A stretch of DNA of 29,267 bases from Acrasis kona (Eukaryota > Heterolobosea > Eutetramitea > Acrasida > Acrasidae), in NCBI GenBank assembly GCA_026419775.2, contig JAOPGA020001540.1, forward strand, positions 1-29,267. Direction: 5' to 3'. Below, piece by piece: positions 4,549-28,758 of the stretch. Below the pieces are notes generated by a model, which did not search any database, was not told where the DNA came from, and was given only the letters and a program-made list of their open reading frames with translations. Each line of letters begins with the position of its first letter. Within the stretch, counting starts at the first letter, position 1. The translations under genes and the position numbers were made by a program.

Positions 4549-4554
4549 TTTATT
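4549..4554 (-). terminator. AATAAA overlapping the CRN-like stop codon
   Basis: The final codons read GGAATAAAAG on the minus strand: the TAA stop at 4550-4552 is the centre of AATAAA. Confidence 0.55.
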
Positions 4555-6670
4555 CCAAGTATTGTTCAATTCCGAAATTTTCCCTTGCAAAGTTGCGTAG
4601 GATTACTCTAACGTTGGCATTAAGATCAATTTTAATGTCATTTTGAATTCCGAAATCAATCTTTTTCAACAAGGCAAATCCCTCTCCATCAATGCCTGCC
4701 GACTTCAGCGCGTCTGCAACGCCTTGAAGTTTGCTATTTTTGTTTAACATCTCGAACAGTTGATTTTCATCAATAGTTTTGGGATCATATCTCTTACTCG
4801 CTCCACCACCCACTACAATAACATGTTGAGTACTTTTGTTGTGTTGTGACTTACATTGCTTTTGTAGATATAACTGCTGTTGCAACAATTGATTCTCCCT
4901 CTGTAGTGCTTCAATATTACTCTGAGAATCTGTGATCTCTCCATCTTGAAATTTTCTTTTTTTATTTAAATGTTTGCTATGAACTTCCTGTGGAGTCAAA
5001 GAAAGCTTCAAATGTACATCAACAACTTCGTCTTCAAAATGGATTTGCAGCTTGTTGAAATCAGCGTTGTGATAGACATATACTAATTTGCAGTACTCCC
5101 TTTTCGGGTAGTGGTAGATTTTGTCAGGAGCGTGTGTGGTGTGCTTTGGCTCGACATTAGTCCAGTCAATAACCCACATCTGATCTAGTTCTAGTACACT
5201 CTTGTATACATACGCTTGTTTGTCAATATGATGCATCAATGTCCCCTGTGAAGCTGAATCTGGTGCGATACTAACTGCTGCTGCGTGTTCAATACCAATT
5301 CTTTGTCCAGATAATTTTATAACAGAATCACACGACATTGTAGATTTCCCAACTTGAACAGGCTTTTCAATTAAATAAAAGTAGGACGTTTGGCTTGCGA
5401 GTAGTTTATCCAAAGCGATTTTGAATGCATTTACATAATGTATCTCCTTGTAGGCAGGACCACATTTACTGCAATGGCTATTTGAACTCTGCCTCTGTTG
5501 CATGATGATGTCTATAGGACTTATCAATTTGATCGTTTCTTTTAAAAGATTTTTTACAACCACAATACCACGCTCATCGTACAATGTAAATTCTTTGACA
5601 GCAGCAACTGGTCTTAATATATAGCTAATCAGTCGAGTCACAAAAGGATTTGCGACTACATATCTATCTGATTCTATGCGGACTATATTAGTTCTTTGTA
5701 ACAGGTACAAATTGTCTACATGAATATCACCAAGGTTTGGTATTGTCGCTGAAAGGCTTTTGACTAACACATCGAAAGTATCTGGATAACCAATCAAGTA
5801 CATATATATAGCCATGTAGTTGCTGCTCAGCAATATATTCAAAATGCATTCGGTCGAGTTCAAGTAATTGTACCATTCCGAGATATTGGGCATTTTGTTC
5901 TCACGAATACGATACTTATCCAACAGCTCCCCCATGATACAAGTCAAACCTGGTGCACCACCAGTGAATTCGAATGTTAAATCTATAATTTTGTCATCAA
6001 AATCCGTAATTTTGTTGTAGTCTTGATATTGTTTGAATAGGTCTTTCGTATCATCTAATGAGAAGAATGGTGCGAATTTTACATCATTGACATTGTATGG
6101 GGAACTTCCAACTGTTTCGATCAGGTATGGTCCAAAAACGTTTGATATGATAAACGAAGATAAAAGGAATGTCTTGTTACCTCCTCTGTTCTTATCCCTT
6201 TCCACTCTGATTGCGGTAAGAAACTCCTGCCGCTGTTTCTTGTCGACTCTAGGAGCTCCTATAGCGTCAATCTCATCAAGTAAAAGTACTAACTGCTTCC
6301 CGGAAGTATCAAATTCTTTGTAAACATCTTCGTATTTTTTAAAGTCTTGTTTCTGGTATCCAATAACTATTTGACGAAGTTGTTCGTTAACTTGACTTGT
6401 AAAATTCTCGAAAATATTATTCGTTAAGGCCATGGATGATGCGACAATGTAGATGCAATAATATTTGCCTGTGGCGTTTAATTGATCTTTTAGAGACAAG
6501 ACTCTTGTTGTTTTACCGCTTGAACTTGGTGCCAAAAGTATAACATGTCCTCCTCTTTCGATAACAGGAAGGAGGTGATTGGAGTTCCACTCACTTGGGT
6601 CAACAAAGAAAGAATTCTCTGGGCGCACTGGGTCTCTCGCATGAAAAGTCTTTACGAATGAGTTTTTCAT
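4550..6670 (-). CDS. Crinkler (CRN)-like protein: P-loop NTPase plus restriction-endonuclease-fold domain
   Basis: A 706-residue intronless protein. The N-terminal NTPase has Walker A APSSSGKTT (residues 47-55) and Walker B LVLLLDEID (127-135), then an AAA-like lid with FTGGAPGL (235-242). Residues about 400-555 resemble the nuclease-fold domain of CRN effectors: the order D448, IGIEHA (459-463), MHHID (479-483), MWVIDW (498-503) and KLVYVYH (528-534) fits the family. A clear ExK is absent (E461 is followed by H-A), so catalysis is uncertain. A basic NKKRKF (569-574) may be a nuclear signal. Then come a Gln/Leu-rich coiled coil (587-606) and a C-terminal SAM-like helical domain (about 635-706). 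Family knowledge: CRN-type NTPase-nuclease proteins occur in oomycetes, fungi and other eukaryotes, act in the nucleus, and are proposed to derive from mobile elements. No secretion signal is visible, so an intracellular role is as likely as effector export. Confidence 0.7.
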   Translation of the reverse strand: MKNSFVKTFHARDPVRPENSFFVDPSEWNSNHLLPVIERGGHVILLAPSSSGKTTRVLSLKDQLNATGKYYCIYIVASSMALTNNIFENFTSQVNEQLRQIVIGYQKQDFKKYEDVYKEFDTSGKQLVLLLDEIDAIGAPRVDKKQRQEFLTAIRVERDKNRGGNKTFLLSSFIISNVFGPYLIETVGSSPYNVNDVKFAPFFSLDDTKDLFKQYQDYNKITDFDDKIIDLTFEFTGGAPGLTCIMGELLDKYRIRENKMPNISEWYNYLNSTECILNILLSSNYMAIYMYLIGYPDTFDVLVKSLSATIPNLGDIHVDNLYLLQRTNIVRIESDRYVVANPFVTRLISYILRPVAAVKEFTLYDERGIVVVKNLLKETIKLISPIDIIMQQRQSSNSHCSKCGPAYKEIHYVNAFKIALDKLLASQTSYFYLIEKPVQVGKSTMSCDSVIKLSGQRIGIEHAAAVSIAPDSASQGTLMHHIDKQAYVYKSVLELDQMWVIDWTNVEPKHTTHAPDKIYHYPKREYCKLVYVYHNADFNKLQIHFEDEVVDVHLKLSLTPQEVHSKHLNKKRKFQDGEITDSQSNIEALQRENQLLQQQLYLQKQCKSQHNKSTQHVIVVGGGASKRYDPKTIDENQLFEMLNKNSKLQGVADALKSAGIDGEGFALLKKIDFGIQNDIKIDLNANVRVILRNFARENFGIEQYLE

Positions 6671-6754
6671 TGACCATCATGTTGTCAACTTCGGTTTTAC
6701 CATTCGATGAATAAAGAGTAAGGTTGGCCTTTATTTTAACATACATAAATATAA

Positions 6755-7503: not shown

Positions 7504-7747
7504 ATTAACTTAGAATGATTTCTTCTGACACCGGAGCTTGTTGAAGATAGAGAAGACCGTGAATTTTACAGTACGAAATAAATCATTACCTGGTTCACGC
7601 TAATTATAAATTCCATACATTTGTGATTCAAACGTTATAACTCCTGACTATAATGTAACAATAAACGTATTAGCAAGGAGCTTCTAATTTTGTTCACACA
7701 AACCTTGTTCCACATCCTTCGTTGTAAATAACCGAGAAAAAAATAGC

Positions 7748-9815
7748 ATGTCTGAAGTATCAAAGGAAATAGAGTCATTAAAAGACAAAGCGAACGATCA
7801 TCTTAAGAAAAAAGATTACTTGAAAGCAATATCATACTATGAGCAGGCATTAGAACTCGCCCCAAAGACTTCGGAAGATTTATCCCACATCCATCACATA
7901 CTCTATAGCAATCGCTCTGCTGTGTATATGGCAATACATGAATACCAAAAAGCAGTTTTAGATGCGCAGCAATGTGTAAAGCTTAATCCAAACTGGCAAA
8001 AGGGTTACCTCAGACTGGCAACATCATACATGTCTATTGAAAACTTGGACGAAGCCTTGAAAACCATAGAGACTGGACTAAAGGTTGATAATGAAGTTCC
8101 GACCTTGGATCAGCTTCAGAGGTTGAAGAAGTTGGCATCTCTACATAAAGCTTACAAGAAAGGTATGATGATACAAAGCAAGTATTTTGACATTTAATAG
8201 CCGGATCAAGTAGATTTTTAATTGAGCAAGCAAAAACAAAATTCAACGTTGAAAAAACATTAGAAGCAGCCACTAATTCTTCAGATCCAGAAGCCATTGT
8301 AAAACTAGCCTCCCTGGCAGGTCCTCAACTGATGCAAAATTCATCAGTGGTAATGAAGCAGGGTGTCTTTAGTTTTTTTGCAAAATTATTGCAATCATCA
8401 AATGAATTGTTTATATTAATTGTTGCATTAGGCTTTTTGTGCAATTATACAAGCGATCCTTATAATTTCGTAATGATGCGAAGAATGATGGGCCTCAAAG
8501 TACATCTCCAAGCTATAAGCCGTCTACTTGATATCTACCAAAAAGATTGTGAAATACTGGAAGAACTACTAATACTGCTTGTGAATGTTGGAGACGAAGA
8601 GAGTGTAGCAGGACAGGTAGTGAGTGATAACAACATCTGGACCAGAGTGCTGAATGTTTACATAAACACAAACATGAGCAAAAAGACAAGAAAATTAGCA
8701 CGTAAAGTTATTTACTGCCTCTCATTCGATGGTAATTCTCACAATTCATTCTTTTTATTAACAATGAGTCAGAAAAAGGCAGAAGAGCTCTTGCAGCAAC
8801 GAATGATGATTTCACAAATACATTGATTCAAGACTGTTGCACCCTACAACTTGGAGATAACGAGGATCTGATTTATCTTGCACAAAACTCATTAATCTAT
8901 GCACCTGATGGAAGAATTAGTTTGTACCTAAGCAACAAGGACATGGTTCAATACATTGTTACATTAATTGGAAGAGGAGACATTACAGCGATCGGTTCAT
9001 TTTCAAACATGATTCACAGGAGCGACATTAGACAAGTCCGAAAGGCAATTAGCGAGAGATTAATCATAAACGTGGTCAAGCAGTTAATGTCTAACAATCA
9101 AGAAGCATGCAACATTTGTCTTGAGATTCTAAATTTCTTCTTTAAACATTTGATTGAATTAAAGGAACAGTTATTGTCTGCACACATTGATACTGTCATC
9201 CAACCATTGTGTTCACACAGGTCTTCTACTATTAATAATTTTGTAAAACTTTTCTTAGAAAAAATAAAAATAGCAAAGAAAGATGTCCCGGTCATCCAAC
9301 CCATGTGTCAGTATTGCAAAGAAAGATCAAAGGACATTAAGAAATGTAGCGTGTGTAAAACCACCTTCTATTGTAGCGGAGAATGTCAAAAGAATGATTG
9401 GCCGGACCATAAATTAGTTTGTCATCAGATCAGAGACAACCAAAGAAATGATGGAGATAAAGTAAGCAGAGAGACTAAAGACACTGACAGGACGCTTGCC
9501 TTACAGTTCCTACAGGAGAAATCTACATTGATTGAACAATTGTTTTCAAAGAAAAAGTTGAGTAGAGACCGATGCCTCTTGTATGTGGACATGAGAATGG
9601 TTCCAGTACAAATGGACTGCCTTTCGTTGGCTGAATTTGATAAAAAGGTGAAGGGACAACCGTTTGAACAAATGTGCAAGTTGGCTGTAGATGAAAAGAT
9701 GAAAAAGAGGGGTGACCAATGCTACATTGCGGTTGTGATACACGAAAACATTGCCATAACGTTTACAATGATGATTAAAGATGGATCTTCAGGAGGACTT
9801 TATGAAGTTGATTAA
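7748..9815 (+). CDS. TPR - helical repeat - MYND zinc finger protein
   Basis: Three exons: 7748-8162, 8201-8731 and 8773-9815. The introns are 38 nt (GTATGA...AATAG) and 41 nt (GTAATT...GTCAG). The second has no stop in its upstream frame, so it can be mistaken for coding or for a frameshift. The joined frame gives 662 residues. Residues about 3-125 are three TPR units (the first includes AISYYEQALELAP), typical of Hsp90/Hsp70 co-chaperones. Residues about 140-490 are helical and look armadillo/HEAT-like. Residues about 493-533 are a complete MYND finger: CxxC, CxxC, YCxxxC, HxxxC. A conserved-looking C-terminal region (about 560-662) is unassigned. TPR plus ARM resembles UNC-45 co-chaperones, but those lack MYND; the role is likely protein-protein interaction. 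A chaperone-linked function is inference. Confidence 0.8.
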
Positions 9816-9880: not shown

Positions 9881-12300
9881 TCAAAGTGAAATGTTGTCAA
9901 GCATTTTTGAATTAGATCCCAGTCTGCTATCGATCTCTGATTTGATTGCGTTTATCAAGGTCATCTTTTCTTTTTTGTATAATATACTGCTCTTCTCACT
10001 GGTCTTGAACATACTCCGATATTTCTTCTTCTTGCTGTATTGGAAGTAGAATAAGAACAATGCTCCACATATAAACACAAATAATGTTAGTGGGTGAAGG
10101 ATATAGTAGGTAATTGAAGACCACACACTAACCAAACGTGGTACCTGCATAAAAGCAGGATTGTGATACCACATCTCGCCCATAATCTGAAGAGGACTAG
10201 CATACGATGTCACGTTTTTCGGCTCCAAGGTTTTGTTAAACATTGTCACGTTGTTTTCTGTCCATTGAACAATCGTAGGTACATAAATTGTAGAGTGGCT
10301 AATAACATTCGGATCTCCTGAATATACCAAATATTGAGTGGTATTGTACAATTGATCCCAATTCATCGATCTATATGCGTAAGGACCGCAACGAACATCC
10401 GATGATGATAGCATAAAATAGAAAGCAGGAATAATAGAACCAACAAGAGTGAATAACATCATAAAGAATGTTAGACTGTGTGACTTTGCATTGTGTTGGG
10501 GGTTGTCGGGGAACTTGCAAGTCAACTTCATTACACCGTACACCACATAAAACATGATGATGTTTGTAATAGTTCCCAACGCAGGAACCATAGGACTAGC
10601 AATACTTCCGATCCAAACCAGAGTTTGTCTGTATAGTAAAGATATCACGTTGGTGCTGGTATCAAACTCTATTTTCGCCAACTTTATGTGCTCACGATCC
10701 GTTCTCCATGCGATGATTTTAATAATAACATAGGACAATGGAATATAGAGTATTTGATAAGCCAACGAAGTAAAAAACTCAAGCAATAGCATTTGCCAAA
10801 ACAACAAACCAGACTCAGTCGTAACACATTTAAGAGGTTGTAAATTATCAGGGTCTATATTAATGGTTTGAACCATCAATGCAACAGTTGTACTCATTTT
10901 TATTAAATAAGTTCTTCCTACAATATTATAATTAATGTACTTTGCGGTTGTATAATCCTCTAAAAGTATCATAGCATAAATAATCAGCGGAAAGACACCA
11001 TTAATGATAGCAGTTAATATAGCCTGAGTAAACGCAAATTTTTGGTTCAAAACTTGATAATATTTTGTAATGTAAGCCACGGAAATTGGAGCTAAGCCAA
11101 TAAAGATGATTGAAACAATTATACCTATAGCCCTTAGTATATATTTCTTTACTAACATTCTTCTGGACATGAATATTATTTTTCCATACTGCACATCATG
11201 ATACATGTACTCTACGATAGTAGTAGCTATTCTCATTTTAGTCAACTCAATCTTGTTCGAATTTGACTCCTTGTGATCAAATCCATTAAACACAATCATA
11301 CAATAGCGTCTTCCGCTCAAGGTTGACATGTTTGGCGTTCGAAGACGTTTTCCTATGGACTTCATTACAACAATCGAACCAAAAAAAAAGTTCATTATAA
11401 TTGTAAAACAGTAAAAATATTCAAATGACCAATAGAGCTCTCCAATTTTTACATATTGCTCATATCCTACCACATAGTCAATGTAACCAGACGTTTACAA
11501 CACTCACCTCCATAAAAAAACCAGTACCTACCTATAAAATCACTTTTCCATCCAACTAGCCCCAAAAATACTGATAGCGATGAAGTATCCACCTCTTTAG
11601 GCCAAGTATCCGTTGGTCTCGATAGCCATGGTAAAATTAAAAGGAAAAAACTGATTAGCGAAGTGACGACGTTAATCCAAATGATGGTCATGTAGAAATC
11701 ATAAAAACTTCCAACTCCAGTTCCGAATTCATATGACGAAGTTATAGCTAAAGCTTTGAAAGGGTTCACAAAATCTCTAATCTAAATGTGTTAGGTGCGA
11801 GTTGAAATAACTTTACTAACCCTTTGAATCTTCTTGCCAATGTGGCGGAAATAGTATTTGAATTTTGATTGTTTTCGCAAGCTGTTATCGCACTCGAAAA
11901 GCTTGTGCTCGAACATTAACAACTTGAGGTTGCTTCTAAATGTATTGCTAGTGTCGCATTCTCCGATTTCTTGCGTTACAATCTCCTCAGCGGTTCGATT
12001 TTCGTTTATGGTTGGTGCTTTGGATATATCTATGATAACTTGTTCCACGGGCTCTGGAGTTTGTTCGACTGCTTGAGGAAATGCTTTTGCAAATTTTGTT
12101 GCTCTTCTTTGCCTAGGCCTTGTGATTGTTTGTACAGGAAATGCATTGGAGGATTCGTCCACTACAACGGGACTATCTGAAAGTACAAGATCGAAGCATT
12201 GATTTGGTAGAGATTTGAAAGTTCGTAGTTCGAGGTCCTCTAGTGAATTGGATGCATCATCGTCGCTGTCTTGTATTCTAACGCGCTTGTTTTGGGACAT
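9881..12300 (-). CDS. TMC (transmembrane channel-like) family protein
   Basis: Three exons on the minus strand: 12300-11821, 11781-11508 and 11466-9881. The introns are 39 nt (GTTAGT...TTTAG) and 41 nt (GTGAGT...GGTAG). The joined frame is 779 residues. The cytosolic N terminus (about 1-155) is followed by KKIQR-IRDFVNPFKALAI and an FGTGVGSFYDF segment across the first junction, matching the TMC entry into the membrane domain. The family's core signature is clear: FDTSTNVISLLYRQTLVWIG followed by SPMVPALGT. The usual CWET motif is reduced to C-V-T-T-E. About ten hydrophobic helices are visible. In animals TMC proteins are mechanotransduction or leak-channel subunits of the TMEM16-like superfamily. 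Channel activity here is inferred from family only. It lies head-to-tail after the sucrase/ferredoxin-like gene. Confidence 0.85.
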
Positions 12301-16712: not shown

Positions 16713-16891
16713 GATGTGTTTGCAAATTATTCATTGAAAGTCAACCAAAATTAAAGCTAGTAGATAATCAGGGCTGCTTATGCACTTCACTTGCAGTATG
16801 ATCAGCGATCACTTTATTATCCCAGTTACACGCATTGTGAATTTAATAATAAATATTTATTTTTAGATTATAGAATAAAAATAAACATAAC

Positions 16892-17992
16892 ATGCTGGCA
16901 TCAGCTCACCAACCAAACACTGTATTACCAAAACACCACGTTGGTAACGGTACATTCCAAAATGTAGAACATGATTATACATTGAGACCAACAAAGCAAA
17001 TTGGCAATGCCATAACAATGCTCACACATATTAGAGGCAAGAAACCAGAGGGCCTAGTTGAACATCCCATATGTACCCCAAACTTTGAGGCCATACATAA
17101 TCCAGATCCAAATGTGATACAATATACCTGGATCGGCCATTCTTCTTTCTTGGTCCAGTTCGGTGGTTATAACATTCTCACAGACCCTGTGTTTTGTAAA
17201 AGAGCCAGTCCAACAAACCTACTTGGACCCAAAAGGTTAAGACCTGTGCCCATGACTGTGGAACAGTTGCCCAGAATAGACATTATCACAATATCACATA
17301 ACCATTACGACCATTGTGATAGACAAGCCATCAAGGCTATATTTAAAAAGTTTGGTGAATTTGCAACCATCTATGTGCCATTAAATCTTAAGACATGGAC
17401 ACAAAGAAAGTTAAAGAACATTGACCACTCAAGAGTCATAGAAATGGATTGGTGGCAATCCCTAAATCATAATTTTGGTGACACGTCCCTTGGAAACATG
17501 GAAATTACATTTTTACCTGCTCAGCACTGGAGCAACCGTACATTCTTTGACTATAAAAAATCTCTTTGGGGAGGGTGGGGATTCCACTTTACTCCCAATT
17601 CTACTTTGTTAAAATCTCGTTGTGTTTATCATTGTGGTGATTCTGGTTATAGTGAAATTATTTTTAAAGACATTGGCGAGAAGTATAGCGTCCCTAGGGG
17701 TAACATTGATTTGGCATTTATTCCCATCGGTGCCTATGCTCCCACTTTTGTACTCCAAGTCCAACATGTAGACCCTACAGAAGCATATCTGGCTTCACTT
17801 TTAATAAAATGTAAGAAGGCTGTCGCAATGCACTGGGGCACCTTCGACTTGTCCTTGGAGAGAATTATGGAGCCTAAAGAAAAGTTAGAAAAAGTCGAAC
17901 AGGTTTATGCTAAAGGTAGACCGCCTACACTAGACGGAGAGCCTTTCTTTATGGCCGTTAATATTGGAGAGACAAAGATGACCGTACAATAA
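16892..17992 (+). CDS. N-acyl-phosphatidylethanolamine phospholipase D (NAPE-PLD)-like metallohydrolase
   Basis: An intronless 366-residue protein of the metallo-beta-lactamase fold. The zinc motif HxHxDH is SHNHYDHCD (H136, H138, D140, H141). Further ligands fit the family: H212 in AQHWSNRT, D250 in YHCGDSGYS, and H314 in AMHWGTF. TWIGHSSFLVQFGGYNILTD (79-98) and LWGGWGF are characteristic of the NAPE-PLD/UlaG-like branch. NAPE-PLD releases N-acylethanolamines and phosphatidic acid from N-acyl-PE at membrane surfaces in animals. The length is close to the mammalian enzyme. The reaction is inferred from the family; bacterial-type relatives of unknown substrate share the same motifs. Confidence 0.88.
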   Translation: MLASAHQPNTVLPKHHVGNGTFQNVEHDYTLRPTKQIGNAITMLTHIRGKKPEGLVEHPICTPNFEAIHNPDPNVIQYTWIGHSSFLVQFGGYNILTDPVFCKRASPTNLLGPKRLRPVPMTVEQLPRIDIITISHNHYDHCDRQAIKAIFKKFGEFATIYVPLNLKTWTQRKLKNIDHSRVIEMDWWQSLNHNFGDTSLGNMEITFLPAQHWSNRTFFDYKKSLWGGWGFHFTPNSTLLKSRCVYHCGDSGYSEIIFKDIGEKYSVPRGNIDLAFIPIGAYAPTFVLQVQHVDPTEAYLASLLIKCKKAVAMHWGTFDLSLERIMEPKEKLEKVEQVYAKGRPPTLDGEPFFMAVNIGETKMTVQ

Positions 17993-19532: not shown

Positions 19533-22500
19533 ATGAGCATATTCAACGCCTTGAGGAGGAGAAAAGAGCCTCCCTTGACTGAACCTTTGAGGGATGATTT
19601 AAAGTATTGGGTTAAGCAGGAATCATTTGTTGGGGCATTCGAACCGAGGGCTAAATCATCCTCTGTTCTTTTGGGAGACGGAAGAATATTTGTGTTTGGT
19701 GGTCAAACTAATAAGAAGGAAATTGATAACTCGTGCTTTATTATAGAGGAAAAAATATCAGAGGGCACAAGTACACCTAAAAGTACAAGCACTACATCCA
19801 TCACAAAGAACAACAAAAACTCTGTGTCGCTCTCAAAGATAGACGTTAAACCAAACGACCTTAAAAGACAAATTTCGGAAGGAACAAAACTGCTATATTT
19901 TGTTACAAATGCACCTATAGTAAACCCTCATGAGTCACCACCTTGCCTGCGGTCTCATTCTGCAGTGATGTACAACAACAAAGTGGTCATTTTCGGTGGA
20001 AAGAATAGAACTTTCTGTAATGCTACTTATATTCTCAACACCATAACATGGTAAGTGTTTATTGTAATAATTGTTTTTGTAACATCACAACAAGGGAATG
20101 GCAGCACGTTGTATGTCTCGATAGTCTAGTTCCCACATTCGTAAATCAAAAGAAAGGGAACAATTCGAACGCTAAAAACACCACCCGCCGCCTAAGGCTA
20201 CCGCAACCACGTTGTAGTCACTCCGCAGTCATGCTTGGAAATAAAATGATTGTATATGGAGGTGTCGGAAAAGCAATTACAAAGACAACATTAGGTAATT
20301 ATTATCAAAATACATCATTTCTAACCAACAAAGGCGATCTCTGGAGTTTTGATGTTGATACCCAACAATGGCAAGAAATTGAACCAAAAGGAGGAATCAT
20401 ACCTCCAGCAAGACACTCACATGTAGCCATTGCACTCAACGATAGCTGTATGCTAGTTTGGGGAGGTTCATGCACGGCTACAAACAACATTTCAGAAAAT
20501 GAACACAATTCCGAAACATCATCACCAGCATCACCCACATCAAACGAAACACAATCCATCAACAACAATCTTTGTTGGCTTTTTGACTTTCGTACTCAAG
20601 TATGGAGTCCCTTCGACTGTCCAATGGCCACCTCTCAGAATGAGTTTTCAAGATCGTCCGCTGCAGGAATTCGTATTCATGACGGTTTATTACTTTTCTT
20701 TGGTGGGCTTCACAACAGGTTACATTTAAAGGACTTTGTCGTGCTTGACTTGCAAAAGAGGTCTCAATACATTTTGGATCCATTACTTGACAAGAAACAT
20801 TTTCCATCCAGTCGAAGAGGCCATGAGTTCCAGCTTATCGGTAATCACTCCCACGCGTTAATCTTTGGTGGATTTTCACGAAAGAGAGGCCGTCTTGATG
20901 ACTGTCATGTGGTTGACTTGCAAAGAGTTGTAAGGAGAGCATTATTTGAACAAAGACATTCCGAAGCATGTGACAGATTACAAATTGAAATGAGCGCCAT
21001 GGGATCCGAACCGGAGCAACCCGACTCCATGTGGTACCTGCATCGTGCGTCCATGCACATCACATTACATAATTATACAGAGGCCGTACAAGATTTAGAC
21101 CAATGTTTGTATTTATTAAAAAATTTAAGTATGAGGGATGAAGCTCTCGAACAGCGTGCTAATTGTTATTTCGCATTAAATTTGTTTGAAGAATGTGAAC
21201 AGGACATCCAAGCGATAGGTCCGTACAAGAGCGAAAAGCTCACGTGGATGTTGGCTCATTGTTTGATTCATATGGGTCAGATCTCTCGTGCCAGTACATT
21301 ACTTGAGGCCTTCACATCGGGTCAACCAGGTTCCTTGTTGTCCAGTTTATCTCAAAAGGTTTCATTGTATGAAAAAGCAGAAAGAGAACAAAAAACGCGT
21401 GGTTATAAAAATGTAAAATATGCATCTGGAGTTGATAAGTCCACCTACGAGCCCCTGAATATTAATAATGTAATGGGAACCACAACTGTGGCTACCAGCA
21501 ATCAAGTCTTTAGAAATGTTAGCTCCGTAGAGAGGGAGGATTTGTTCTTGACTGGTGGCATGATTAGCTACGAAGATCATTACTTGTACGACGACAAATT
21601 AACTTTTGAGAAGGGAAAATCCAACTTGGTTTTAGTGGTAGGAGGTGGTCCCTCAAGCGGATGCACAACATTTATGCAACAAATCCGTCTGGCATACCGA
21701 AAGTCAATGAGTCCCGTAGAGTGCATGCAATACAAGACGGATATCCGCGCTAGATGTGTATATTTATTTTTTAGACTGTTGCAATTTAAAGATTTTTTAA
21801 ATTTATATTTTGAAAAGAATCCTCCAATAGATGGTCCCTCACAAATCCTCTTCTCCGGCGAGTCAAAGTTTTTGGAAGAAAACTTGAAGAAGGCTTATGA
21901 ATCCGTAGAACCAAACACATTTGAAAATAAAGATTTTTGTTTTGTGCGTGAGCAAGAAAGTTTGTTAAATCAGATTGTTTCGTTGGCACAAGACAAAACA
22001 TCAAGGATGACCTTTTTAAAGAAGGAGAAGAGAATCGACTGGTTGAGCAATCCAAAATTAGCACAAGAACTTCTCAATTATGACAGCACTCTATATGAAT
22101 GTCTTATGGATGCCAATGATTTGTCTAGTTATGTAAATGACTTTGAATATATCTTTGCCAATAATTACGAACCCAGCACAAATCACGTGTTGCGGTTGCC
22201 TCATCGAGATAGTGTGTATGCGCCTGATGAATTCCGGCGTCAAGTGATGCTAACTCCCAGAGGTTCCGTCATGGAGAATAGCAAGAGATTAGAAATGGAG
22301 AAGAAAAGAAAAAAGTATTCCATGACTACAAGTAAATTCTTTATTCAGGATGAAAGTGACGATGATGAGTTGTGTGATTTGAATGATAACTTCTTGATGA
22401 TGGCCTCCGACATTCAGTTGCATCGCGAAAGAAACTCACTAAGCGTCATGTATAAAACCAATCCTTATAGAATTATCAATCCACAAAGAGGTAATTCTTT

Positions 22501-23014
22501 AGAAGATTTATCGTCCGGGTGCTGCACCATCTTGTTGTTTGTTAATCTTGGTGATTTTGATAGAACACTGTCAAAGGATCTCTTAAGCACCAGTCAAAGT
22601 GAAATTGTTGGGGATAATTTGAGAATCAATTCTAATAGCAGCTCTGGTATCGTGAGCGGACTGCATTCTTTTGATAATATTTGTAACTTGCAAGACTTCT
22701 TCAATGTTCCCATTATTGTTGTTTTTACAAAATTTGATGTTTTTGTAGACAAGACCCGTCGAAAGATTAATTTGAAATGTGTATTCCCTGATATTGTTTA
22801 TGGAGATGGATCTAACGAATCTATTGTTTCCGATTCACAATCCTATTTGCAACAATCATTTGACAGGATCAACGGCAACAACAAGAGGAAAGTACATTAT
22901 CATTACATTGATACTTTGGACAGTTTTGATTGCTGCAGGACGTTCAAGGTAGTTGACGAATTAGTAGCCGCGGTCGACATGAGGAGATCACTTGCAGCTA
23001 ATGGTATGATGTAA
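19533..23014 (+). CDS. Kelch propeller - TPR - degenerate G-alpha fusion protein
   Basis: Two exons, 19533-20050 and 20095-23014, with a 44-nt intron (GTAAGT...ACAAG); the joined product is 1145 residues. The ATG at 19533 is the first in frame. Six Kelch units, each ending in a hydrophobic-GG pair (FVFGG, VIFGG, IVYGG, LVWGG, LFFGG, LIFGG), occupy about residues 35-450 and predict a six-bladed propeller. Residues about 457-580 are TPR-like. From about 684 the sequence follows G-alpha: a P-loop VGGGPSSGCTT (688-698), an all-helical insert including DANDLSSYV, a LLFVNLGDFDR strand, IIVVFTKFD (NKxD reduced to TKFD, about 1051-1054), then HYHYIDTLDSFDCCRTFKVV near the C terminus. The catalytic DVGGQ motif is missing. 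It is likely a pseudo-G-alpha or atypical nucleotide-binding module. The fusion appears genuine because all domains share one uninterrupted exon. Confidence 0.82.
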
Positions 23015-23919: not shown

Positions 23920-26900
23920 TTAACCTTGCATCTCCAAATCATTGCGTGGTGTTGGGGGTGAGGTTGGTGAGGTTGGTGATGGGAGTCTGTTGTAATCTGC
24001 TTCTTGTTGTGGGCTTCCCATGCTATCTAGCTTCATTCCAGTGGTGTTCTTTCTTCCAATGATGACGACTGCAATAACTACTACAACCAATAATGCTACA
24101 ATAATTACAGCACCAGCAATAGAACCGATGATGATACCGGCAATTTGTCCGCTGGTCAATCCATTGAAGAAGGATGGTGCGGCAGTGGTTGTTGGTGAAG
24201 TGGAGTTAACTTGTACGACAACATAATCTGTTGTGTGGTTGCATGAGCAAGATACCTTGTTGGCAGTTACGCTGGTTGTGGTGCAACCCATGTTGCTGAA
24301 TTCAAGTGCGTTAGCATCCCAGTATTGGCATTGGTAGTTCAAGGCGGTGTTGTAAGTACCAGCGATGCTGAAGTCAAGGTTTGATGTCAATCCCTTAATG
24401 GAGAATGGAGCATCGCAGTTCTCGCCGATGTGTACTGTGAACAAGTTTGAGACTACGTTCTTGCCTGAGCTACTCTTGAAGATATTCGAGGGGAGGGACA
24501 TGGCCTTGATTTGAACTGCTGAGTTATCGTCTCCCAAACCTCCGGCGTTTACTGGAACAACCAAATTGTCGGTTGCGTTGGATGCACCTAGTTGTTGTCT
24601 TGCCAAAATGTTGAATCTGAAGTTCTTTGTGACGAAAATCTTGATACTGCTTCCCAACACAACTGGAGCATCACCGGCGTTCAAACCAGTGGCGACACTG
24701 TCCATAACGTTGCAAGTTGCATCGTAACCTCTTTTGGCTACATCGTATGAAGATTGTTTGACGCTACGAGCCACGTTTGATCCTAATCCACGCAAACATG
24801 TTGGAAATGACATTTAAAACAGATGAACTTGTTGATACTGACAAGATACCAGAAGTCTTCTTCAACATATCGTTGATCTTATCCAAAGTGTTTGTTCTTG
24901 CTGCTGCTAAGACGGTATCTGAGTTCTTTGTTGCAGTGTTCATGAGACCAACAACATTGTCGACGTATTGATCAACAACTGCGGCAGCAGCACTACCAGC
25001 TGTGGCGTTGGCGTTGATAAACTTAAGAGCGTTTGAAACAATGTTTAAGGCGTTGGAGATGAAAGTTCTTTGAGCAGCTAATTCAGCATCAGTGTAACCG
25101 CAATCGCTACCACCAAATCCAACGTTGCAAATGCACGTGCCTCCGCTGCAAGATCCACGCTTGAAACAATCATTTGGACAAGCAGTGACTGGTTTTCCAG
25201 TTGAAACACCTTGACTAGCGGCATTGTTTGTTTGAACTGAATTCAAAATAGATAGACCAGAGTTGATGGTGTTCAATAGAGCTGGTTGTGGTGGAACGTC
25301 CAAGCTAACTGAGCTGATTTGACTGGAGAAGAAGGAAGTAATGGCGCTACTGTTGGTTGCGTTGGCAACTGATCCGGTAAGTCCAGGAATAGTTGGTTGT
25401 TGGACGGTGAAGGTAGCAGATGCTGATGAACTGTATCCTAGGGCGTTTGAAACTCTGACGGTGAAGGTGATTGGGTTTGACGTGGCAACGTATGGAATGG
25501 GGAACAGAGTTGATGCTGATTGTGAACCAGAAACAGCAGTGGTTGATGCTCCAGTTACTGGATCAGTGAACAAGAAAGAGTAAATCAATTGTGCACTGGT
25601 ATCTCCTAATGGATCACTGTCGGTGAAGCTTACGGCGGTGGCGGTGATGGAAGTTAGTGCTGGACCGCTGTATGAGCTCAAAGTCAAGTTACCAGTTACA
25701 ATGTTGTTTCCGACGACTGTGACTGAAACAGTGTTTGATCCAGAAACGCTTGAGCTTGGTGTCTTAACTGCGAGACCAATAGTGTAAACACCTTGTTTCA
25801 AGACACCGGCTGGTACGTTCAAAGTACCAGCGTTGAGTGCGACACCGGTTAAGCTTTGTACAACACCTCCTTGAGTGATGGTCCATGCATAAGTAGCCAA
25901 GAGTGGGCTGTAACTTGGTTGAAGGTTGGCAACAGTTGCTGGAACGGCAGTGATACTCAAAGGAGTTGCAAGTGAGATTGATCTGGTTGGGACACCAACT
26001 AGGTTGGAGACTGGAACTGCACCATTGACAACGGTGATGGTTGTGGTGGCGTTGGCGCTTGAACCGGTTGAACCAGTTACCTTGACGGTGACGACGTATG
26101 TACCGGCGGTGGTACCACTGATGGTTTGAGATAGAGTATTGGTGAAGGATGGTGAGGTTGGACCAGTTGCTGACCAGACGATAGTTGGAGTTGGTGATAG
26201 ACCATCAGCATCAACATAAGTGGCGCTCAATTTAACATCTTGATTAGCAGATGTAGTCAATGCGGAACCTTGGTCAATTTTAACGACCAATGGTCTCTCA
26301 ATAACGGAAATTACGATGGTTCCTTGGTAAGCAACGGTTACGGCACCGTTCAAGTTTACTTTAACTTGATAGTAAATGTTGTAGTTTGTGTTGACTTGTG
26401 GTAGAGAGAAAGCTGCTAGAGTCAATGATGATGCGTTGACTGGTACTGATAAAGCAGCGATGGCTGGTCCAAATGTTTGTGTGAAAGAAGTAGTGAAGTT
26501 TTGGTAGTTTGAGCATGGGTAAACAACTAGAGGGTTTAGTTGAATGCTATCTCCACGATAAGCACTGAGTGCTGACTTGAAGTTGGTGACAACAACTGTT
26601 TCTAGACCGACGTTGGTGGATACTGTAGCAGATGCTTGTCCGTCGACGGCACCGACTTCTAGTTTGAATAAGTGTTGCTTGCCGGGAACCAATTGGCTTC
26701 CTGGAATAACTACAACTGATCCAGTTTGTGCTGATAAGAAGGTGTTCAATGAGACAAGTGCGCTATCTGTTGTGTCAACTGTCCACTTGAATCTAGCTGC
26801 GTTGGTAGAAGCGTTACCGTACAATACTAGACCAGTGCATGGAGTTGGTGCTGAGATACTTACAGTGAAAACAGCATTTGGTCCTGTTGATGTTGGAGTT

Positions 26901-28213
26901 GGTGTTGGTGCAGCAGTTGTTGATGGAGCTGCTGGAGTTGGAGTTGGGGTTGTTGTAGCTGCTGGAGTTGGAGTTGGGGTTGTTGTAGCAACTGGTGTGG
27001 ATGTTGGGGTTGCTGTACGGGTTGAGGTGGCAGCTGGGGTGGCAGCTGGTGTGCTGGTTGAGGTGGAAGTGGCAGCTGGTGTACTGGTTGAGGTGGAAGT
27101 GGCAGCTGGGGTACTGGTTGAGGTGGAAGTGGCAGCTGGTGTACTGGTTGAGGTGGAAGTGGCAGCTGGGGTGGAAGTTGAGGTGGAAGTTGCAACTGGT
27201 GTAGATGTCGGTGTTGTTGTGCGGGTTGAGGTGGCAGCTGGTGTACTGGTTGAGGTGGCAGCTGGTGTGCTGGTTGGGGTAGCAGTTGACGTGCTAGCAG
27301 TGGTTGATGTACTAGTTGGTGTGCTAGTGGAGGTAGATGTAGCTGCTGGGGTTGAAGTTGAAGTACTAGTTGGTGTGCTAGTGGAGGTTCCAGCTGGAGT
27401 GGAAGTTTGAGTTGCGGTTGGTGTTGAAGTAGATGTGCTGGTTGCAGTGGATGTGACAGTTGGTGTGCTGGTTGAAGTGGATGTGACAGTTGGAGTTGAG
27501 GTTGGTGTTGAGGTTGAAGTGGATGTAACAGTTGGTGTTGAGGTTGGTGTTGAGGTTGATGTCGCGGTTGGGGTTGAGGTTGGTGTTGAGGTCGATGTCG
27601 CGGTTGGGGTCGATGTCGCGGTTGGGGTTGATGTCGCGGTTGGGGTTGATGTCGCGGTTGGGGTTGAGGTTGGTGTTGAGGTTGAAGTGGATGTAACAGT
27701 TGGTGTTGAGGTTGGTGTTGAGGTTGATGTCGCGGTTGGGGTTGAGGTTGGTGTAGCGGTTGGTGTTGAGGTTGGTGTAGCTGTTGGGGTTGCGGTAACT
27801 GTTGGTGTAGTGGTTGGGGTTGCGGTTGGTGTATCGGTGTGTGTTGGTGTAGCTGTGGGGGTTGGTGTTGAGGTTGGTGTAGCTGTTGGTGTTGAGGTTG
27901 GGGTTGGTGTAGCTGCTGTTGTATCTGTTTGAGTAGCTGTGGGTGTGGGTGTTGGGGTTGGTGTAGCTGTTGGGGTTGCGGTTGGTGTTGAGGTTGGTGT
28001 AACTGTAGGTGTTGCGGTTGGTGTATCGGTGTGTGTTGGTGTAGCTGTGGGGGTTGGTGTTGAGGTTGGTGTTGAGGTTGGAGTAACTGTTGGAGTTGGG
28101 GTTGGTGTCGGTGTTGCTGTTGGTGTATCAGTTGGTGTTGCAGTGGTGGTATCAGCGATCACAGTAGCGACCAAAAGCAATAGCAACAAGGACAATATGA
28201 TGATGTACTTCAT
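23920..28213 (-). CDS. Mucin-like REJ/PKD - EGF - GPS single-pass adhesion receptor
   Basis: Minus strand, about 1419 residues from two exons, roughly 28213-24798 and 24763-23920. The junction is the weak point: the frame changes near 24764-24797, and a 34-nt intron with a poor GTTTGC donor fits in phase, as does a longer one (donor GTATCT near 24856). An indel is not excluded. Residues 1-21 are a signal peptide. About 22-445 are an extreme Thr/Pro/Ser repeat, likely O-glycosylated. About 446-960 are PKD/REJ-like beta domains. About 1010-1042 are an EGF-like module ([14 protein letters not shown]...C-C). About 1283-1318 are a GPS motif: CQYWD, GC, then [12 protein letters not shown]. About 1345-1373 form one transmembrane helix. 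The 46-residue tail is Pro/Ser-rich. GPS-containing proteins may self-cleave at H-(L/T)-T. A cell-surface adhesion or mating role is inferred. Confidence 0.75.
26885..28150. repeat. Minisatellite encoding the Thr/Pro/Ser stalk
   Basis: Nested tandem repeats of a 6-nt core (GTTGGT/GTTGAG variants on the plus strand). Higher-order units are visible: a 30-nt unit around GGCAGCTGGTGTACTGGTTG repeated about five times at 27040-27180, an 18-nt GTTGGGGTTGATGTCGCG unit repeated three to four times at about 27605-27665, and a larger segment with GAAGTGGATGTAACAG duplicated at about 27490-27560 and 27665-27735. All unit lengths are multiples of three, so copy-number change keeps the frame. Length polymorphism is expected. 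Confidence 0.85.
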
Positions 28214-28758
28214 TTCTACAAACTTTTGCGGTGGGATGGATAATGTGAGATCGGTGTTAAATTACCGATGTTGGCCAATAAAAAATCTTCATCCTCGCGC
28301 TCAAAAATCTCACACTAAAAAATTCTAAACCGATAACCAATTTAGTAAATCTTGATGTTGAATGGATAGCGGAGATTTGAATTACAAAAAGGATTTCTCT
28401 GATGTCATTTATTTCAACGTCGTTCATGTGGTCAACCATACAAGAAGGGGTAAGGAGTCCGCGGAGTCCAATTAACGATCAAATCGTTTTTAATAATTGT
28501 CACGCCGTGTTAAACTTAATATTCTTCTCGTTCTTTAAACGAATTTGATTGTTTAAAACACAATCACAATTCAAAAAGATGAACAACATCACAGTGAATG
28601 GATCAAACATCAGTCTTAACACAGTCGTATAGCATGGTAACACTTTTCTTCTACAAGCACAAACGGAACTTGTTATCAGCACAAGTAACGGGACGTGTGT
28701 ACGAGTAAATCAATTAATTTACAAAGAAGTAAAAGAACATGTAAAATTTTAAAAATAA
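28214..28758. other. Intergenic region upstream of the adhesion receptor
   Basis: 545 bp between two minus-strand genes, holding the receptor's promoter and 5' leader. A small inverted repeat, ATCGGT-8 nt-ACCGAT (28250-28269), lies 37 nt upstream of the ATG and could form a weak hairpin in the leader. A GGAGTCC direct repeat sits at 28454-28469. No reliable gene was found; one doubtful micro-ORF is listed under rejected items. Confidence 0.45.

Follow-up and report, generated by a model that had tools for sequence, protein, structure and literature searches.

In plants, a signalling role for G-alpha subunits after the loss of GTP has been worked out for the XLG proteins; passages of one review state that XLG2 is functional with its GTP binding removed, and that XLGs bind Gβγ and RGS proteins while nucleotide-free (PMC8584482). 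Pseudo-GTPases without G motifs are likewise described as serving in regulation (PMC5593906). Here we describe a gene of the heterolobosean amoeba Acrasis kona, located at positions 19533-23014 on the forward strand of a 29,267-nucleotide stretch of DNA (the window hereafter), which makes up contig C805 of the A. kona genome in its entirety (JAOPGA020001540.1, assembly GCA_026419775.2). From N- to C-terminus, its product consists of six Kelch units, a helical region resembling tetratricopeptide repeats (TPR) and a G-alpha domain that has lost the residues used to hold and hydrolyse GTP. We favour, with moderate confidence, the explanation that this is a heterolobosean Kelch-TPR-pseudo-G-alpha protein, common to Acrasis, a metagenomic relative and Naegleria, which works as a nucleotide-independent scaffold or decoy.

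Gene model and domain architecture

The spliced coding sequence (19533-20050 plus 20095-23014, +) translates into a protein of 1145 amino acids, identical letter for letter with the public A. kona protein P0001, which NCBI and UniRef name "actin-fragmin kinase". Exon 1 (19533..20050) runs through residue 172 to the second base of codon 173, and covers the N-terminus, the first Kelch blade and the larger part of the second; it is followed by a predicted 44-bp intron (20051..20094, GTAAGT...AAG) and by exon 2 (20095..23014), which includes the stop codon. An initial annotation, made from the sequence alone, had correctly proposed these coordinates and this splice, which is also that of the public A. 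kona gene model. The unspliced frame, when read past 20050, hits a TAA at once, and no in-frame ATG lies between an upstream stop and the one at 19533; the resulting N-terminus is similar to that of the metagenomic relative P0002. The intron fits the range of 9-95 bp reported in the A. kona genome paper, in which gene predictors are said to have been trained on transcriptome and protein data (PMC11589745).

The Kelch propeller spans residues ~38-447 (19644..20917, with the intron inside this span), and matches Pfam PF24681 with 186.5 bits (E 5.4e-55, cut-off 50); other Kelch models, including PF01344, are also matched over their cut-offs. Its six units, as initially counted, are confirmed by the hydrophobic-GG cores of six blades, at residues 55, 154, 227, 295, 375 and 430. 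The TPR-like helical repeats follow at residues ~484-607 (21026..21397). All Pfam TPR models stay under their cut-offs in the A. kona protein (best E 6.2e-4). In the predicted full-length structure discussed below, residues 481-580 are the sole long stretch with a predicted local distance difference test (pLDDT) score over 70 (block means 71-85), and TPR chains are among the Foldseek matches of this model. The G-alpha domain, residues ~673-1145 (21593..23011), matches PF00503 with 84.3 bits (E 1.1e-23, cut-off 48.8). Thus, the profile searches suggested in the initial annotation place both the Kelch and the G-alpha parts above threshold.

The assignment of the last domain was further supported by two comparisons. 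When the last 484 residues were compared with solved structures, 186 sequences were matched at E up to 0.01, and the chains named among the best 60 of these 186 include G-alpha chains, the best (E 5.3e-16) being an engineered mini-G12. In addition, hhalign aligned the domain with two A. kona G-alphas over 321 columns, at 23% identity and a probability of 97.9, with an E of 6.2e-13 that is the value for one single comparison; this alignment starts ahead of the P-loop and runs to the last residue. The claim that the G-alpha part keeps its helical insert has no more than moderate support: the alignment covers the corresponding stretch, in which helices are predicted at low model confidence, but this is its weakest section. 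Given the Pfam and profile scores, and the relatives with the same domain order presented next, a chance match is excluded, and the proposal that Kelch, TPR-like and G-alpha-like parts are joined in one gene is borne out.

Distribution among related protists

A protein database search with the Kelch-TPR half as query returned 22 proteins, including the query itself, of which four have Kelch together with PF00503 and 18 have Kelch and no PF00503. The three relatives are P0002 (1324 aa, JGI metagenome, 40% identity), P0003 (830 aa, JGI, 37% identity) and P0004, which is C9374_001615 of Naegleria lovaniensis (1278 aa, 24% identity). The order Kelch-TPR-G-alpha is present in P0002 and P0004, and also in P0003 as far as it goes, since this sequence ends inside the G-alpha part. 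Their PF00503 scores are 99.1 bits for P0002, 86.7 for P0004 and 48.0 for the truncated P0003, just below the cut-off of 48.8; TPR matches are below cut-offs in P0002 and P0004, and pass in P0003 (PF07719, 29.5 against a cut-off of 27). Hence, the architecture that the initial annotation suggested looking for in related protists was found in Naegleria and in metagenomic proteins, and its equal domain order there speaks against two separate genes.

The relationship holds for both ends of these proteins. Searched against the A. kona genome, the Naegleria protein finds its top match on C805 with both its Kelch half (8.8e-18) and its G-alpha half (8.8e-15), and so do both halves of P0002. The G-alpha domains of the family score 75-330 bits with one another. 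Against A. kona G-alphas, of which two entered the comparison spliced and the remainder as single-exon frames, a form that depresses their scores, they do not exceed 25.1 bits. The domain of P0004 scores 75.0 bits with P0001 and 76.3 with P0002, its best value against the A. kona G-alphas being 23.8. We conclude that the Kelch-TPR-G-alpha protein is a real signalling protein, and probably an old one. The simplest account of its distribution would be a single fusion before the split between Acrasis and Naegleria, the alternative being transfer between them.

As query of the protein database, residues 600-1145 found nothing beyond the protein itself, and the G-alpha domain alone gave no match at E 0.001 or better, although good matches to G-alphas are obtained for this domain in smaller databases, namely, Pfam and solved structures. 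The protein searches depend on shared five-residue words, and the Kelch-TPR search scored only those candidates sharing most words. Because of this limited sensitivity, the absence of further species carries no weight, and the family may extend to others, for instance N. gruberi or N. fowleri. Viral contigs scanned to deepen the alignment gave 152 pattern matches and no relative.

Within A. kona, a genome scan placed 74 matches to PF00503, a large share of which are weak and partial or cover a single exon, and 87 to Kelch PF24681, and only on C805 do the two lie close together. Contigs C604, C224, C384 and C495 carry both kinds of match at least 19.7 kb apart. A paralogous family was considered and rejected, as the assembly examined holds neither a second Kelch/G-alpha pair nor a full-length paralogue. 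This assembly amounts to 37.4 Mb in 1021 contigs, against an estimate of 44.02 Mb given in the genome paper (PMC11589745); the counts of the scan are lower bounds, and a second copy could have escaped it.

GTP-binding motifs and conservation pattern

None of the nucleotide-binding motifs of the G-alpha domain is intact, a point that the initial annotation had not raised. The P-loop of the A. kona protein, GGGPSSGCTT (residues 689-698, 21641..21670; aligned by hhalign and with the structure chains), has Cys in place of the G-alpha Lys, and none of the four family P-loops (GGGPSSGCTT, GAEHKNGCTT, GADRQNGCTT and GQHECGMTS) retains this Lys or the G1 pattern GxGESGK[ST]. As a control we examined 27 A. 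kona G-alpha loci, where the Lys is kept in 21 of the 21 P-loops that can be read. Six loci have an unreadable P-loop (L021, L027, L028, L032, L034 and L035); among the control loci, L024 is almost a duplicate of L025, and at three of the 21 readable ones, L006, L017 and L019, the match stops just past the Lys, probably at an intron.

The G3/switch II pattern DxGGQ was found in none of the four members, nor anywhere in the A. kona protein. Switch I is reduced to a relict, NYEPSTNHVLRLPHRDS (residues 863-879, 22163..22213), placed by hhalign and the family alignment, in which the RxKTTG core is lost; the corresponding segments read LRLPHRDS, LRMTNRDS and LRLSGRDA, and the P0004 counterpart is unrecognisable. 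Between this relict and the C-lobe lies an insert (residues ~880-960, 22214..22456) with the acidic run DESDDDE. Toward the C-terminus, where P0003 has already stopped, the G4 remnant is TKFD (residues 1051-1054, 22727..22738; family and structure-chain alignments), with TKYD and THHD in the other two members instead of the canonical NKxD. In the G5 region, IDTLD (residues 1111-1115, 22907..22921; hhalign and the sequences themselves) stands for the canonical TCATD, the family having IDTL, INAL and VNTL where TCAT is expected.

The C-terminal half and the last helix are kept. As read from the sequences, the alpha5 helix (22943..23011) ends in SLAANGMM, which resembles the SLKDQGMM of A. kona G-alpha C406 and is unlike the tails of most other A. 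kona G-alphas compared; with its Phe as the starting point of the count, the helix exceeds that of C406 by four residues in each of the three members that extend this far. Identity of the A. kona protein to P0002 and P0004, respectively, is 56.7% and 38.0% in the Kelch part, which is the best conserved; 36.9% and 24.2% in the TPR region; 38.5% and 16.7% in the linker (6/36 aligned positions with Naegleria); 38.3% and 18.5% in the N-terminal part of the G-alpha domain; 44.7% and 19.1% in the region of the acidic insert; and 43.9% and 29.7% in the C-lobe.

The stretches of highest constancy are within the Kelch part, and include SRKRG[RK]LDD, in A. kona SRKRGRLDD, at residues 434-442 (20876..20902) in the loop past the GG of blade 6 according to the family alignment. 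Among the 22 proteins of the Kelch-TPR search, this motif occurs in all four family members and in none of the 18 other Kelch matches, and it is thus a candidate signature with which to find further members. A profile of P0002-P0004 restricted to the Kelch columns has LZTR1 chain 9mey_B as its best solved match. By analogy with LZTR1, where docking led to the proposal that a basic residue in the BC-loop of blade VI contacts the GTPase RIT1 (PMC8154269), the basic loop of blade 6 may be regarded as a candidate binding surface.

Weighing a proposed scaffold role against its alternatives

As judged from its sequence, the G-alpha domain resembles a pseudo-GTPase, with its motifs lost and its fold backed by sequence homology. 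Since the P-loop Lys, DxGGQ and intact NKxD and TCAT are all gone, an ordinary GTP cycle appears unlikely; a scaffold or decoy fits the loss of the G motifs better, and a scaffold role is more likely than that of a GTP switch. We therefore infer that the protein functions without nucleotide. Its C-lobe and tail may bind a G-protein partner, for instance a receptor or an RGS protein, and the propeller and TPR region would bring a second protein to this partner, the whole acting as scaffold or decoy next to the numerous genuine G-alphas that these amoebae possess. Regulation might come through the propeller rather than through GTP, for example by way of the invariant basic loop of blade 6, which possibly contacts the acidic stretch inserted in the pseudo-G-alpha. 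In Naegleria there are partners for which such a protein could compete, as 13 G-alphas and 28 seven-transmembrane RGS proteins are reported for N. fowleri (PMC9283941), and the genes listed as up-regulated in aggregating A. kona include a G-protein-coupled receptor and two Gβ subunits (PMC11589745).

Several observations weigh against the scaffold or decoy explanation. The surfaces by which ordinary G-alphas bind Gβγ, switch II and alphaN, are missing or replaced, which weakens a direct Gβγ role. The three members long enough to include G4 all retain its Asp, so that weak nucleotide binding is possible. Moreover, motif decay by itself is not special, because several other A. kona G-alphas show altered G3/G4 motifs and some G-alphas of Naegleria and Dictyostelium are mentioned in a review as deviating in catalytic motifs (PMC8584482). 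The altered A. kona motifs, for example DCAGA, DVCAT, DIGGA and HGDLL, were seen at L018, L022, L027 and L034, and partial decay may be common in the large G-alpha family of this organism.

Structure prediction adds to these reservations. With a four-row alignment, AlphaFold2 gave a pLDDT of 40.0 for the full-length protein and of 34.2 for the G-alpha domain, and with this low confidence neither model was used for any claim on pockets or interfaces. Foldseek listed G-protein entries for the domain model, none under E 0.001, and G-protein and TPR entries among unrelated large assemblies for the full-length model. The structural check that the initial annotation had suggested therefore leans toward G-alpha and TPR folds, but the models are too poor to decide the matter.

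A different use of the same parts, along the lines suggested in the initial annotation, would be a single-chain mimic of the heterotrimer, in which the propeller folds in cis onto the G-alpha part as a Gβ-like partner. Propellers and G-alphas do meet in yeast, where the Kelch proteins Gpb1 and Gpb2 are reported as binding partners of Gpa2 that inhibit receptor coupling by this G-alpha (PMC2211295). The two are carried on one chain in Acrasis and in Naegleria, and an invariant basic loop on one side comes with an acidic insert on the other. However, switch II, the usual Gβ contact, is lost, which speaks against a Gβ-like contact of the ordinary kind; the full-length model, at a pLDDT of 40.0, was unsuited to showing an interface; and the TPR-like region and a linker that is hardly conserved with Naegleria separate the two domains. 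We regard such folding as unlikely. It is tempting to speculate about a 'locked heterotrimer' in one chain, where the G-alpha is nucleotide-free, having dispensed with GTP because the Kelch propeller took the Gβ role, the tail binds a receptor or RGS protein, and ligands of the propeller or TPR would switch the availability of this tail. This idea, which we hold to be doubtful, would, if true, mean that GTP-independent G-alpha signalling was invented separately from plant XLGs, in amoebae with large G-alpha families.

The retained G4 Asp, in the three members reaching it, and the fairly conserved C-lobe (43.9% with P0002 and 29.7% with P0004) could also be taken as signs of a divergent yet working GTPase, with unusual nucleotide binding and the Kelch-TPR part as its effector. 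Against this, the P-loop Lys and DxGGQ are missing in four out of four members, and RxKTTG and TCAT are gone, which leaves such an enzyme improbable. Still less probable, in our opinion, is a cytoskeletal Kelch protein carrying its G-alpha part as a neutral remnant, as the database name and the better conservation of the Kelch part (56.7% and 38.0% identity) might suggest. On the other hand, both lineages have retained the G-alpha part, and its C-lobe shares 29.7% identity with Naegleria as compared to 24.2% for the TPR region. No kinase domain appears among the 19 Pfam families found up to E 1; we reject the annotation as actin-fragmin kinase on this basis, and thereby correct a misleading name. 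Finally, that a gene model or assembly artefact merged two genes has a negligible probability. The model does rest on one predicted intron; this intron, however, sits within the Kelch part, blades 3-6, the TPR region and the G-alpha domain being encoded in a single unbroken frame of 997 codons, and the same order recurs in the Naegleria and metagenomic proteins.

Other frames in the window

On the reverse strand, the frame at 4550-6676 (708 aa) has a weak N-terminal match to AAA-type ATPases (PF00004, E 3.8e-05), and may resemble Crinkler-type proteins. At 7688-9815 (+), TPR and then MYND-finger frames overlap in different reading frames, possibly as one spliced gene. The frame at 9881-11494 (-) has a TMC domain (PF07810, E 2e-11); TMC proteins are putative mechanosensitive channels. 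The product of 16874-17992 (+) has a metallo-beta-lactamase fold (PF12706, E 2.2e-28), and may be NAPE-PLD-like. The legend of a signalling figure in the A. kona genome paper names an N-acyl-phosphatidylethanolamine PLD (PMC11589745). Downstream of the Kelch-TPR-G-alpha gene, 24764-28261 (-) encodes a mucin-like frame of 1165 aa with long Thr/Pro/Ser repeats and a strong local GC skew.

Comparison with known systems

The architecture appears to be undescribed in searchable open-access text, where no account of a fusion between Kelch and G-alpha came to light; the word 'kelch' is absent from the main texts of the A. kona genome paper (PMC11589745) and of the N. fowleri G-protein paper (PMC9283941). 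What was already known are the sequences, which are public, and the existence of motif-deviant Naegleria G-alphas, mentioned in a review (PMC8584482).

Like Physarum actin-fragmin kinase, the A. kona protein has Kelch repeats, and the two share a name, but no kinase domain was found in the A. kona protein. With canonical G-alphas, such as the A. kona and Naegleria fowleri subunits, it is homologous from the P-loop to the C-terminus, and over the Pfam cut-off; it differs from them in having no working G1 or G3, ~670 residues in front, an acidic insert and an alpha5 longer than that of C406. The pairing of a Kelch propeller with a G-alpha recalls Gpb1/Gpb2 and Gpa2, as described in the yeast text cited (PMC2211295), although these are separate proteins, whereas in A. 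kona one chain carries both and the G-alpha is degenerate. LZTR1 also has a six-bladed Kelch propeller, with docking-proposed GTPase binding through basic loop residues; unlike the A. kona protein, it has BTB-BACK domains, and the Ras-type GTPase that it recruits to be ubiquitinated is a separate protein (PMC8154269).

Among pseudo-GTPases, pG1 and pG2 of p190RhoGAP, CENP-M and dynein LIC are likewise GTPase-like domains without G motifs in larger regulators; pG1 has a Ras-like fold (PMC5593906), whereas the A. kona domain is related to heterotrimeric G-alpha. Plant XLG1-3 provide the working parallel; they join a long N-terminal extension to a C-terminal G-alpha with weak or lost motifs (PMC8584482). 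A degraded G-alpha behind a long extension is what we find in A. kona; plant origin and, according to Pfam, a Cys-rich N-terminus are not, given that XLGs are described in that review as plant-only and their N-termini have a Cys-rich motif, a nuclear localization signal and a nuclear export signal (PMC8584482), while the heterolobosean protein has Kelch and TPR-like parts. A shared fusion with similar motif loss in a distant eukaryotic lineage represents an independent case, in which a propeller is attached to a pseudo-G-alpha.

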